DNA of 64,000 nucleotides, taken from positions 846,737 to 910,736 of the forward strand of contig NZ_QXHD01000004.1 in NCBI RefSeq assembly GCF_011009555.1, in the 5' to 3' direction. Each line of letters starts with the position of its first letter. The first letter of the stretch is position 1. The DNA comes from Adonisia turfae CCMR0081 (GTDB lineage Bacteria; Cyanobacteriota; Cyanobacteriia; Phormidesmidales; Phormidesmidaceae). The notes under the pieces are model-generated. The model worked only from the letters and a program-made list of their open reading frames with translations. It searched no databases and was not told the origin of the DNA. This document shows positions 31,314 to 36,355 of this stretch, in pieces. Both the position numbers and the translations under genes were made by a program.

Positions 31314-31658
31314 ATGTACGGAATTGTAGGTGTTGAGGAAATATCAGCTCCGGACTTTGCCCAGCGGCTGGCAGAGGATGGGTTACAGCTGGTAGATGTT
31401 CGAGAACCAGAGGAAGTTGCGATCGCACACCTCTCCAACTTTATCTATTTGCCTCTGAGCCAATACGCTGACTGGGCCGATCAAATCTTTACCCATTTAG
31501 ATCCCAGTCTTGAAACCATTGTCATGTGCCACCATGGCATTCGTTCAGCCCAAATGTGTCAGTGGTTACAGCGTCAAGGGTTTGAGCGCACCAAAAACCT
31601 GTCTGGTGGTATCGATGCCTACTCTCGCCTAGTAGATAATACCGTTCCCCGTTATTGA
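31314..31658 (+). CDS. Rhodanese-domain protein
   Basis: 114 residues, one rhodanese domain: LQLVDVREPEEVAIAHL, the active-site Cys in VMCHHGIRSAQM, and NLSGGIDAYS. Single-domain rhodaneses carry sulfur as a cysteine persulfide; partners are unknown. A ribosome-binding AAGGAG precedes the ATG. It is 118 bases upstream of the Pap-like operon on the same strand, possibly its first gene. Confidence 0.9.
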   Translation: MYGIVGVEEISAPDFAQRLAEDGLQLVDVREPEEVAIAHLSNFIYLPLSQYADWADQIFTHLDPSLETIVMCHHGIRSAQMCQWLQRQGFERTKNLSGGIDAYSRLVDNTVPRY

Positions 31659-31776: not shown

Positions 31777-32247
31777 ATGCTTAGCCAGCTTCAAACCCTT
31801 GTCCGTGAAGTTGATGGACGTTATGCCACCGACACAGAGCTAATGTTTTTGCAAAATTACCTGCAAACGGCTCGTCTACGGTTTAGTGCCTATCAAAAAA
31901 TTCAGAAAGCCGAGACCGCTATCATTCAACAGGTCAAACAAAAACTAAAGGCTACTGACCCTCAACTGCTCCGGCGGGGCAAAGTTGATCTCAGCGCTAA
32001 GTGGCAGCGGGATGCTGTGATCGGGTTTCGCTACTGTGCCCATGCGCTACTAGTAGCTGACGAAGAAGGATTAGAGGAGCGTCTTTTGCTGTGGTTTCAG
32101 TCCATCATACGTTCCTTTAAGGCCCAGCAAAGCTGCGACATTACCTACAAAATTATGCAGGATGTAGTGCGTCAGCATCTAACGCCGCAAGAAGCAGAGC
32201 TATTTTGTCCAATTTTGGCCCAGGCTAGACTTTTGCTAGGGCAATAG
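31777..32247 (+). CDS. Phycobilisome-like protein without chromophore cysteine (Pap-type operon)
   Basis: 156 residues, an all-helical phycobiliprotein-like fold: GRYATDTELMFLQNYLQTAR, RFSAYQKIQKAE, KWQRDAVIGFRYCAHALLVA. In true phycobiliproteins the last segment begins KCARD; here Cys is replaced by Trp, so bilin attachment at the usual site is not expected. Such proteins accompany V4R proteins in the operon known from Synechocystis as slr0144-slr0152, implicated in photosystem II assembly. The next gene starts 37 bases downstream. Confidence 0.72.
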   Translation: MLSQLQTLVREVDGRYATDTELMFLQNYLQTARLRFSAYQKIQKAETAIIQQVKQKLKATDPQLLRRGKVDLSAKWQRDAVIGFRYCAHALLVADEEGLEERLLLWFQSIIRSFKAQQSCDITYKIMQDVVRQHLTPQEAELFCPILAQARLLLGQ

Positions 32248-32284
32248 CGTTACCCTGAAGGTACGCTCATGTATCGCAGGTCTT

Positions 32285-32965
32285 ATGGATATTCCATCGG
32301 TTGGCGCCCACAAGTTGCGTCAGCAATATCCCAATAAACACAATTACTATAAGTTTGCCGATTTTTTCCAGTTCAATGCATCTAAGGGCACTATTTCTGA
32401 CTGGCATGGCAGCCGTAATATCCTGACAAGTGAAGATTTCATCATTGGTTTGTTAGAGGGCTTGGAAGAAGAAGTGGGAGCCGCTTCAGCCGCTGTGATG
32501 TACTCCATTGGTTTGGAATGGGGTAAACAAGACTCATTATTTTTTGACCAGTGGTTTGAGCGGGAGTACAACGTTAGTCCCCAGCAGGCTAACCTTATGT
32601 TTCTATTAGAAACCTGGTGGTGGCCTTTTACGGCCCAAGGTTGGGGCCGTTGGGAAATTGACATGGCCGATCGCACCCAGGGGTTTATGTTCATTAACCT
32701 CTTTGACTCAGCCGTTGCACGCACTTTGGGGGATGTGGGTAAACCCGTCTGCTATCTGTATGCAGGACTGTATGCTGGCTTTTTTACTGAAATGGTACGT
32801 AAACAGCTTAGCTGCATTGAAATTCAGTGCTATTCCATGGGGGAAACCTACTGTAAGTTCTTATTGGGGGCCCGAGAACGAATTGATGCGGCGGCGTTTT
32901 GGCTAAATGAAGGGGCGACAGCTAGCGATATTCAAAACCGGCTGCGTTCCGGAGATTCATTGTGA
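32285..32965 (+). CDS. V4R-domain protein, Slr0144-like
   Basis: 226 residues. The C-terminal V4R (4-vinyl reductase) domain shows GKPVCYLYAGLYAGFFTEMV and the Cys-bearing IEIQCYSMGETYCKFLLGA. V4R domains bind small hydrophobic or tetrapyrrole-like ligands in some families. By gene order it corresponds to Slr0144 of the Pap operon: followed by a small protein, a phycobilisome-like protein, another V4R protein and a kinase. Its stop overlaps the start of the next gene (TGATG), a sign of coupling. Expected to be soluble or peripheral at the thylakoid. Confidence 0.82.
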   Translation: MDIPSVGAHKLRQQYPNKHNYYKFADFFQFNASKGTISDWHGSRNILTSEDFIIGLLEGLEEEVGAASAAVMYSIGLEWGKQDSLFFDQWFEREYNVSPQQANLMFLLETWWWPFTAQGWGRWEIDMADRTQGFMFINLFDSAVARTLGDVGKPVCYLYAGLYAGFFTEMVRKQLSCIEIQCYSMGETYCKFLLGARERIDAAAFWLNEGATASDIQNRLRSGDSL

Positions 32966-33255
32966 TGGCTAACGATGTAATCAAGTCTAAAGTGAGCAGT
33001 CAGCCCCTGGAACTTATCTCAGTTGGGGAGTTTTTTCAGCAAATCAACTGGTATGGCAGGACAATGCCTGGTATGGATGAGGCAGACCTGGCGAATACTC
33101 CCTATGAAACGGTTGGGCAATTTTTTGCTACATTTCCTTGGCAGGGAGCAGGGGGGGCTACGACTGCTGACGATTGGGATGCAGTGAAAGATGATGAGAC
33201 TGCCCCCATTGAACAAGCTACTCTCACGCTAGAAGACCTATCGGCGCTATTTTAG
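32965..33255 (+). CDS. Small Pap-operon protein, Slr0145-like by position
   Basis: 96 residues from the ATG overlapping the preceding stop. The centre (ISVGEFFQQINWYGR, YETVGQFFATFPWQG) is hydrophobic and aromatic; the C-terminus is acidic (ETAPIEQATLTLEDLSALF). No known domain. Assignment to the slr0145 position rests on gene order only. Its role in photosystem II assembly is inferred from the operon. Confidence 0.6.
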   Translation: MANDVIKSKVSSQPLELISVGEFFQQINWYGRTMPGMDEADLANTPYETVGQFFATFPWQGAGGATTADDWDAVKDDETAPIEQATLTLEDLSALF

Positions 33256-33312
33256 GTCTGTCGGTTATTTTGAACACGCTAGTTTTGAATAAAATTGCCC
33301 TCTAGCATCACC

Positions 33313-33807
33313 ATGACAACGCCTCCTAGCCAGCACATTTTGCGACAGATTGAGCTTCAACCAGATAAGAGCTATCTGACACCTCAGGAGTTGAGTAGTC
33401 TGGGCCGGTATGTTGGCAGCTTAACGGACCGTGTCCGCGCATATCGCCAGCTGCGTGAGTGGGAGGTTAACCTGATTCAAGAACTGGTGGATCGGCTGCC
33501 GACCGAGCTGAAGGAAAATACTAGGGCACTGGAACAAAGTATCAAACAAACGATCTTGATCCTGCGCTATGCCGCTTTAGGCATGCTGGTGGATGACGTA
33601 CATCTAGGGCGACGTCGCTTAGAGGGATGGTTGCCAACGATGGTGATGGTTTATCAGACCCAATCAATCGATGTATTGCTGCAAAAATCCCTCAATCAAC
33701 AGCTGCCCAGGCTATTAACTGACTCCCAGTTTGCTTTACTACAACCAGCCCTAGAGTCAGCACAACAGCTCTTAAAAGATGCCGTAAAAGAAGAGGGGGC
33801 AGAATAG
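33313..33807 (+). CDS. Second phycobilisome-like protein, Slr0146-like by position
   Basis: 164 residues from the ATG at 33313 (TTG at 33295 possible). Helical like the 31777 gene: YLTPQELSSLGRYVGSLTDR, RAYRQLREWEVNLIQELVDR, IKQTILILRYAALGMLVDDV. The bilin-binding cysteine position is not Cys, and the protein contains no Cys that I can find. The two copies in one operon may form a non-pigmented heterodimer; that is inference. Confidence 0.68.
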   Translation: MTTPPSQHILRQIELQPDKSYLTPQELSSLGRYVGSLTDRVRAYRQLREWEVNLIQELVDRLPTELKENTRALEQSIKQTILILRYAALGMLVDDVHLGRRRLEGWLPTMVMVYQTQSIDVLLQKSLNQQLPRLLTDSQFALLQPALESAQQLLKDAVKEEGAE

Positions 33808-33894
33808 AATTTCCATTCTAAAAAACTTGCCGATGATAAAATTTCTCCACGTAAGCGTAGTTTCAGTACGAGAACCTTTGAGGGACTCATTGTA

Positions 33895-34560
33895 ATGGTA
33901 TTAGTCGCCGATTTACTTGCAGACACTAATCTGACGTCCAACTACTTTGCCAGTGATGTCTATGTGCATGGCAGCCTAGATCTGGGGTTATTGGAGAATC
34001 GTCGTGGTGATCGGCTACTGGCTTTACCAGAAACCCTGATTCGGGCAATTTATTCAGGGTTAGATAATGAAACTGGTCAGGCCTCAATGTTGGTGTTATA
34101 TAACTGTGGGCGCTGGTGGGGGAAAAATTTTTACACACGCTTTTGCGAAGAGCTAACTGATTACCACAATCGTTCGATATCCAGTTTGTCAATGTCTGAG
34201 TTTATACAGGCTTTGCAGCAGTGTTGGGTGACCCATGGTTGGGGGCAAATCAGTTTGGATAATACCTATAAACCTGACGGATTTTTGGTGGTAAAAATCC
34301 GCGCATCGGCTTTTATTGACTATGCTCCTCAGTTAGAAAGACCTGTAGGATTTCTAGAGATGGGCGCATTACAAGCATTTTTCAGTGAATTGAGTGAGCA
34401 AACGTTGCACTGTGTACAAACAGCTTGCGAGTCATTGGGGGCTGAAGAAAATTGTTTTGTTCTGGGTGTCGAAGAGCGATTGGCCCTGGCAGAGGCAGGT
34501 GTAGAACAAGGGCTTTCCCACGCTGAAATTATGAGCTTACTGGTGGGCCAGGGAGCTTAG
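33895..34560 (+). CDS. V4R-domain protein, Slr0147-like
   Basis: 221 residues with a C-terminal V4R domain (VGFLEMGALQAFFSELSEQT, HCVQTACESLGAEENCFVLG). It parallels the first V4R protein through YNCGRWWGKNFYTRFCEEL and WGQISLDN. Position and domain match Slr0147 of the Pap operon. It ends 38 bases before the kinase gene, with none of the ferredoxin-like or TPR genes that stand between them in Synechocystis. Confidence 0.82.
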   Translation: MVLVADLLADTNLTSNYFASDVYVHGSLDLGLLENRRGDRLLALPETLIRAIYSGLDNETGQASMLVLYNCGRWWGKNFYTRFCEELTDYHNRSISSLSMSEFIQALQQCWVTHGWGQISLDNTYKPDGFLVVKIRASAFIDYAPQLERPVGFLEMGALQAFFSELSEQTLHCVQTACESLGAEENCFVLGVEERLALAEAGVEQGLSHAEIMSLLVGQGA

Positions 34561-34597
34561 TCGCGTGCCAACGGATTGATAACGGGATTTAGTGAAC

Positions 34598-36355
34598 ATG
34601 AGCCATCAGCGGTCTAGCTATCGCCTGTTGGGGCTGGTCGGCAACGGTCAGTTTGGGCGTGTGTATTGCGGTGTGCATCGCAAGACCGGGCAACTGGTCG
34701 CCATTAAGTATTTACATCGTCATAGCTTATCAACCCATGCGTTTTTGCGAGAGCTTCACTGCTTATTGAGTTTGTCGCATCCCCATATAGTTGCCTGTCA
34801 CGCTTTAGAGCATTGTGAGGATGGGCGGCGGTTGGTCTTGGAATATTGTGCCGGTGGTACATTGCGATCGCACATGCTCAGCCCCCTCAGCGTGGCTGAT
34901 ATTCTCACCCTGGTGTCAGATGTGCTCTCGGGGCTGGCCCATGCCCATCAGCAAGGCATTATCCACTGCGATATTAAACCCGAGAATATTTTGCTCAGCT
35001 ACAGCGATGGTCGCTGGCGAGCCAAGATCTCAGACTTTGGTATTGCCAAACTTACCCAAGACCAGCAAAATCACGAAGGCACAGGACAGACGGGATCCCC
35101 GGCTTACATGGCACCAGAGCGTTTTTATCGCCAGTACTCCCCATCAGCAGATGTATACGCAGTTGGCGTGATGTTGTTTGAGCTGCTAGTAGGTCAACGC
35201 CCCTTCACCGGTACGCCTATGGCCTTGCAATCAGCCCATTTAAACCAGCCTGTGCCTGATGCAGACCAACTTAGCGAACCGCTGAAACATATTATTGCCA
35301 AAGCCTTAGAAAAGTTGCCTGCGCGCCGCTATCCAACCGCTGCGGAAATGTTGGTTGACCTCAAACAATTAGATCCCTCTAGTCTGAATCTTGGACAGTC
35401 GCTTAACGCCCCAAAGATCGATTACGTTTCCTACACGGGCAATCCCCTACATCGGCTGACTCAACCAGTCACCCATTTTCAAAAGCTATCAGCGGCATCC
35501 ATTACGCAGGATGATGAGTCAGCTGTCGAGTCCACAATGCTGATGGTCCACGGTTTACAGCTTGCTACTCTCCAACAGCAGTCACTCAACGTCTCACCGC
35601 AAATTCTTGATGCGTCAGTACAAGGGCTACATCTATCCCCAGCCGGACTGATGGTGAGTACGGCATATACCCTTTGGCGTGGTGCAACCCCTGAGTGTTT
35701 GACCTCCCTGAGTCATTGGCCATTGCCTGCCATGGCTGCCGTGGCACCGCATCAACGTTGGATAGCTACGGTTAGTCCCAGTACCAAACAATTGACCATT
35801 ACCCAATTACGTGAACCGACTCAGACCCCTGTACGTCGGCCCTTGCCTCCAGATATTGAGATCCATCAGGTAGTGGCGATTGATAAGGCCCACATCGGTA
35901 TTTTGGCCAGTAGTGCTGGTTCAGGCAGCCAGCTGATGTTGTGGAACCGTCGAGGCATGTATCTGACCTCACTGGATTTAGGGATCACGCTGCAGCAGCT
36001 TACGCCCACAGATCAGCGCCATCAATGGATGGCTATCGATGTCCATGCACCTCACACCGTTGTCTTTCTCACCCTCAAACCCCTGCGCATGACACGCATG
36101 ATTTTGGATATTTGCCCGGCGCTAATGCTGGATTTGCCCTGGGGATATCTTTTCAGCAACACTGTAGGACGCATGTTACTGCTTGACCGCGATTTCTATC
36201 CCATTGGGGGGATTCAGGGGCCAGCTGGGGTAACTGCACTGACTGCTATGAGTGCCCATGAGTTACTAGTGGCCACATGGCAAAACAAACCGATTGGGCT
36301 CGGGGCGCTCCATAGGTTAAACCTGCAAGAATTTGATCTGGGTATGATTTTTTAA
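34598..36355 (+). CDS. spkG: Ser/Thr protein kinase, SpkG-like
   Basis: 585 residues. The N-terminal eukaryotic-type kinase domain (about 1-270) has the glycine loop LVGNGQFGRVY, VAIK lysine, catalytic HCDIKPENILL, DFG in ISDFGIAKL and activation-segment GSPAYMAPERF. The remaining ~310 residues are beta-rich, possibly a degenerate propeller, with no transmembrane segment. Length and location at the end of a V4R/phycobilisome-like operon match Slr0152 (SpkG), linked in Synechocystis to salt response. The gene symbol is by synteny and length. GTG at 34592 is an alternative start. Confidence 0.8.
   Translation: MSHQRSSYRLLGLVGNGQFGRVYCGVHRKTGQLVAIKYLHRHSLSTHAFLRELHCLLSLSHPHIVACHALEHCEDGRRLVLEYCAGGTLRSHMLSPLSVADILTLVSDVLSGLAHAHQQGIIHCDIKPENILLSYSDGRWRAKISDFGIAKLTQDQQNHEGTGQTGSPAYMAPERFYRQYSPSADVYAVGVMLFELLVGQRPFTGTPMALQSAHLNQPVPDADQLSEPLKHIIAKALEKLPARRYPTAAEMLVDLKQLDPSSLNLGQSLNAPKIDYVSYTGNPLHRLTQPVTHFQKLSAASITQDDESAVESTMLMVHGLQLATLQQQSLNVSPQILDASVQGLHLSPAGLMVSTAYTLWRGATPECLTSLSHWPLPAMAAVAPHQRWIATVSPSTKQLTITQLREPTQTPVRRPLPPDIEIHQVVAIDKAHIGILASSAGSGSQLMLWNRRGMYLTSLDLGITLQQLTPTDQRHQWMAIDVHAPHTVVFLTLKPLRMTRMILDICPALMLDLPWGYLFSNTVGRMLLLDRDFYPIGGIQGPAGVTALTAMSAHELLVATWQNKPIGLGALHRLNLQEFDLGMIF

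Follow-up and report, generated by a model that had tools for sequence, protein, structure and literature searches.

A front-BBAG form of the Pap gene cluster in Adonisia turfae CCMR0081, with the slr0148 orthologue at a distant second locus

We analyzed a 64,000-nucleotide stretch of the Adonisia turfae CCMR0081 genome (contig NZ_QXHD01000004.1, positions 846,737 to 910,736; the whole stretch is called the window below), in which six adjacent genes at positions 31777-36355 resemble the Pap (photosystem II assembly) operon of Synechocystis, i.e., slr0144 to slr0152. This locus is probably (at a rough probability of 0.75) the front-BBAG form of the cyanobacterial Pap cluster, BBAG being a phycobiliprotein-like globin, within a system that is split over two loci and whose products still form one tetrapyrrole and redox complex on thylakoids, active in photosystem II assembly or repair. 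An earlier note on this DNA, which described a shortened operon with an extra gene at its front, saw a real feature but took displacement for gain and relocation for loss.

The six genes and their Synechocystis counterparts

Open reading frames and Pfam matches agreed with the gene order read earlier from the sequence, i.e., phycobilisome-like, V4R, small protein, phycobilisome-like, V4R and Ser/Thr kinase. The six genes, followed by a neighboring gene, are as follows, with identities to the reference locus described below:

31777..32247, + strand: BBAG, slr0149 orthologue (PF00502, 6e-20; 34% identity; reciprocal best hit, tree and residue table)
32285..32965, + strand: V4R protein 1, slr0144 orthologue (V4R, 1.1e-18; 61% identity)
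32962..33255, + strand: small protein, slr0145 orthologue (no Pfam match; 26% identity; 18-row alignment)
33295..33807, + strand: second, more divergent phycobilisome-like protein, slr0146 orthologue (PF00502, 5.8e-5; 31% identity)
33895..34560, + strand: V4R protein 2, slr0147 orthologue (V4R, 2.4e-11; 47% identity)
34592..36355, + strand: Ser/Thr kinase of the SpkG (slr0152) type (Pkinase, 2.7e-53; 36% identity)
31314..31658, + strand: rhodanese-domain protein (Pfam Rhodanese, 2.9e-14), 118 nt upstream of the BBAG gene

The spacing between the six operon genes is -4 to 87 nt. An ATG at 33313 is the probable alternative start of the slr0146-type gene, and the alternative ATG start of the kinase gene lies at 34598.

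The reference for orthology was locus L101 of genome G208, a member of the genus Synechocystis picked via ApcD and not PCC 6803 itself. Its ApcD shares 99% identity with PDB chain 7sc7_AE, a chain of the Synechocystis PCC 6803 phycobilisome; the corresponding values were 77-85% for same-family genomes outside genus g50 and 81-84% for two g50 members. In L101, the order V4R 1, small protein, slr0146 type, V4R 2, Fe-S protein, BBAG, PetF, TPR protein and kinase equals slr0144 to slr0152 in sequence. The Fd4/petF gene of L101 (12925-13255) is broken over two frames as two partial open reading frames, possibly through pseudogene formation or assembly error.

All six proteins (6/6) were reciprocal best hits of their L101 counterparts at 26-61% identity, with the internal order of slr0144-slr0147 preserved and an SpkG-type kinase last. 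Similarity to the Synechocystis proteins is thus not low, and membership in the Pap operon family stands. The same gene order was found in many other cyanobacterial loci and is therefore not due to chance. A tree built from 85 proteins placed the front gene among slr0149-type BBAGs and the second phycobilisome-like gene with the slr0146-type proteins, a separate clade, while true phycobiliproteins formed their own group (support 100/100). The BBAG group had weaker support (80/53), so that the slr0149 assignment leans partly on reciprocal hits and gene order. By reciprocal best hit, tree position and flanking order in relatives, the front gene is a relocated slr0149 orthologue, and nothing in the operon is therefore additional. 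The slr0149 product itself has been described as phycobiliprotein-related, i.e., as phycobilisome-like and not a ferredoxin (PMC6002478, PMC10151467).

It is barely credible that the front gene encodes a working allophycocyanin subunit, as ApcA-like annotations in some genomes would have it. The protein significantly matches the Phycobilisome family as well as allophycocyanin chains, and a similarly placed gene on an Acaryochloris plasmid is annotated as "allophycocyanin"; however, it falls outside the group of true phycobiliproteins and has no bilin Cys, many genuine phycobiliproteins are encoded in the genome, and the same annotation in Acaryochloris has been doubted (PMC6002478). Apart from the antenna genes, weak Phycobilisome-domain matches were also seen in frames of 344-387 aa (G000:C11:2959348, 2505886, 5330253, 1601282, 6117528).

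The genome (8.66 Mb) contains exactly two V4R matches. Its V4R protein 1 and that of Leptolyngbya sp. PCC 7375 are the same over 226 residues, which marks the latter strain as a close relative. A PDB sequence search with V4R returned only a phenol-gene regulator (5fru, E 0.009), and an AlphaFold model of V4R protein 1 was of low confidence (pLDDT 53) and was left unused. Similarity of the kinase to the reference covers 614 columns and includes a conserved C-terminal region. The slr0145-type small protein contains the FFxxxxWxG-type motif twice and has a conserved C-terminal tail, LEDLSxLF (18-row alignment); a search of the genome for the motif found only this protein, which is thus single-copy. 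Its homologues are chains of such short motifs, more than two in some relatives, with tails ending in LF or LFG. Slr0151- and Fd4-type proteins also tend toward LFG or FG ends, and a docking motif shared with the slr0145 type is possible.

Arrangement of the cluster and the second locus

To compare operon forms across cyanobacteria we surveyed 121 distinct loci, a sample skewed toward Leptolyngbya-like genomes, as its first set was retrieved with the window's own protein as query. The commonest complete arrangement (25/121) was contiguous, i.e., X4, Fe-S protein, BBAG, V4R 1, small protein, second phycobilisome-like protein, V4R 2 and kinase, X4 being the gene that precedes the Fe-S gene (Fd5, slr0148). 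The stretch from V4R 1 to the kinase stood alone in 21 loci, and the form seen in the window, led by BBAG, was found in 18, with five more having a rhodanese gene in front. The Synechocystis-like order, in which the Fe-S and BBAG genes follow V4R 2, was a minority form from other families. The front-BBAG form is therefore recurrent and is common in Leptolyngbya-like cyanobacteria, and the kinase is kept in the operon in most relatives. "Shortened" accordingly misleads as a description: many filamentous relatives have the same or a shorter form, and others have X4 and Fd5 directly before it. Adjacency of the rhodanese gene was confined to L003-L009 among the fetched loci, i.e., the Leptothoe/Leptolyngbya PCC 7375-like clade plus L009.

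An Fe-S protein profile search of the genome gave one strong match (G000:C11:1995125-1995601, E 4e-86), which shares 61% identity with the L101 Fe-S protein. This Fd5 orthologue lies 1.117 Mb from the operon, with an X4 gene directly upstream. The contiguous arrangement in other genomes ties these two split halves together. Among genomes of the window's family, strong matches to both Fd5 and X4 were found in 29/29 with the V4R pair versus 0/12 without it. The latter span six genera, of which g2, g3 and g8 also include genomes with the system; G097, with a single stray V4R match, was counted among the 12, and G258, a fragmented assembly with one V4R match, among the 29. Co-occurrence of Fd5 and X4 with the V4R pair despite the split is apparently new, as far as we searched.

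X4 has no Pfam match. Its AlphaFold model (pLDDT 85, built on a shallow alignment) opens with helix-strand-strand-helix-three strands-helix, and the top Foldseek matches were Roadblock/LC7 proteins (best E 4e-4, TM-score to target 0.57). X4 is thus a predicted Roadblock/LC7-domain protein. We found no publication uniting the V4R domain, roadblock and cyanobacteria, and the main text of Rockwell et al. (PMC10151467) mentions neither a Roadblock protein, nor a rhodanese, nor Leptolyngbya.

Whereas slr0148 encodes Fdx5, slr0150 encodes Fdx4 (PMC7363133). The latter (Fd4) is not in the operon, and its matches in the genome were canonical PetF-like ferredoxins only (best 56%), so that no slr0150 orthologue could be recognized. 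For slr0151, likewise outside the operon, the genome gave only generic TPR-repeat matches; strong-looking ones (E 1e-20) were rejected as they covered only the repeats, the best belonging to another TPR protein, which lacks the N-terminal region of Slr0151. The best match to that N-terminal part was weak (29%) and within an interrupted frame. Slr0151 appears to be dispensed with in this genome, and Fd4 may be. The earlier statement that slr0148-slr0151 are missing therefore holds for slr0150 and slr0151 as operon genes, and as far as the genome search goes for slr0151 elsewhere, but not for slr0149, at the front of the operon, or slr0148, at the distant locus.

A truly shortened operon, having lost its ferredoxin and slr0149 functions and gained a new phycobilisome-like gene, is accordingly very unlikely. 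The absence of slr0148, slr0150 and slr0151 from the operon, and of a credible genome match for the N-terminal part of slr0151, fits such a loss; however, the genome search and the tree already refute it for slr0148 and slr0149, given that the front gene is an slr0149 orthologue and that Fd5, encoded elsewhere, accompanies the operon in the family without exception.

Like the Pap operon of Synechocystis sp. PCC 6803, the locus holds slr0144, slr0145, slr0146, slr0147, slr0149 and slr0152 orthologues together on one strand, in the 0144-0147 order and with the kinase last. Unlike it, slr0149 comes first and not sixth, slr0148 is unlinked, slr0150 and slr0151 are outside the operon, a rhodanese gene lies upstream, and BBAG has Trp for the bilin Cys. 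Rockwell et al. 2023 (PMC10151467) described variability of the BBAG/V4R/Fe-S cluster among cyanobacteria; here its Fe-S gene is unlinked. Acaryochloris has slr0144-0152-like clusters that are likewise partial sets, with an slr0149-type gene easily mistaken for apcA, but strain RCC1774 keeps slr0148 and slr0151 homologues adjoining the cluster, unlike this genome (PMC6002478). Variability of the Pap cluster has thus been published, and the window form departs only modestly from a known system.

A search for the cluster on plasmids returned Acaryochloris plasmids only. Plasmid pREC3 of Acaryochloris marina MBIC10699, typed as conjugative, carries V4R, hypothetical, V4R, 2Fe-2S and "allophycocyanin" genes in Synechocystis-like order (L242; NZ_AP026078.1, 265565-268873), and the last of these probably encodes a BBAG. 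On another Acaryochloris plasmid (NZ_AP026077.1) there is likewise a V4R match. Five V4R matches were seen in one genome (L090, G148:C26), including a V4R domain in a frame of about 600 aa near an X4-like gene.

The bilin site of BBAG

Bilin is attached via the Cys of a CXRD motif in phycobiliproteins and in only some cyanobacterial BBAGs (PMC10151467). Loss of the Cys is thus known in kind. In the window BBAG the motif reads WQRD, with Trp76 at the bilin-attachment position and Asp79 kept. Across distinct loci, this position was Trp in 50/55 front-type BBAGs and Cys in 11/13 Synechocystis-order BBAGs, and the Asp was conserved throughout the BBAGs compared. We found no description of the conserved Trp in front-type BBAGs, which is apparently new as far as we searched. 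We make no causal claim for gene position, front or back, as a driver of this difference, because the difference is at least partly phylogenetic.

A tentative extension, which we consider possible but rather doubtful, is that the Leptolyngbya-type BBAG, lacking covalent bilin but with conserved Trp and Asp, might be a non-covalent tetrapyrrole carrier or sensor, and that the Fd5-linked Roadblock/LC7 protein might be an unrecognized obligate subunit in much of cyanobacteria.

Function of the split system

In Synechocystis, Slr0144-Slr0149 interact mutually on thylakoids and are tied to photosynthetic repair (PMC9880817), the operon has been tied to photosystem II assembly and repair (PMC9145668, PMC4853703), and phosphorylation of Fd5 is lost without SpkG (PMC11863333). 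From this complex and this phosphorylation, together with the orthology, split and co-occurrence reported above, we infer a similar system with a tetrapyrrole role in the present strain. One locus would supply BBAG, the V4R pair, the small protein, the slr0146-type protein and the kinase, the other Fd5 and the predicted Roadblock/LC7 protein, and the products of both would still form one thylakoid complex. Within it, BBAG and the V4R proteins would handle a tetrapyrrole, and Fd5 would pass or tune redox state during photosystem II assembly or repair. The SpkG-type kinase would act on Fd5, the kinase thus being encoded at one locus and its presumed target at the other. The module would work without slr0151, and possibly without Fd4.

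Several points weigh against this reading. The CXRD Cys is absent from the window BBAG, a direct demonstration of SpkG activity is still lacking according to PMC11863333, and the Fisher test for the co-occurrence (P 1e-10) takes no account of phylogeny. The six genes probably form a single transcription unit, as judged by gene spacing only, and a promoter and terminator scan of the locus gave nothing above shuffled sequences.

A different explanation, that the locus is left over from bilin metabolism or light sensing and does not take part directly in photosystem II assembly, seems the less plausible one but deserves some weight. Rockwell et al. derive the BBAG, V4R and Fe-S genes from pre-PcyA clusters, and suggest that effects on photosystem II may stem from the adjacent slr0150-slr0152 (PMC10151467), two of which were unrecognized in this genome. 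Set against this are the thylakoid location, mutual interaction and repair link of Slr0144-Slr0149 noted above, and retention of the kinase in the operon of most relatives.

Whether the Pap proteins serve photosystem II assembly, repair or bilin handling is unsettled. In this lineage, the BBAG, V4R and kinase set persists without recognizable slr0150 or slr0151, and it is accompanied by Fd5 and the Roadblock protein encoded at a different locus, so that the core of the system can be told apart from Synechocystis-specific additions. The analysis thereby yields one new candidate subunit, i.e., the predicted Roadblock protein, and one testable residue change.
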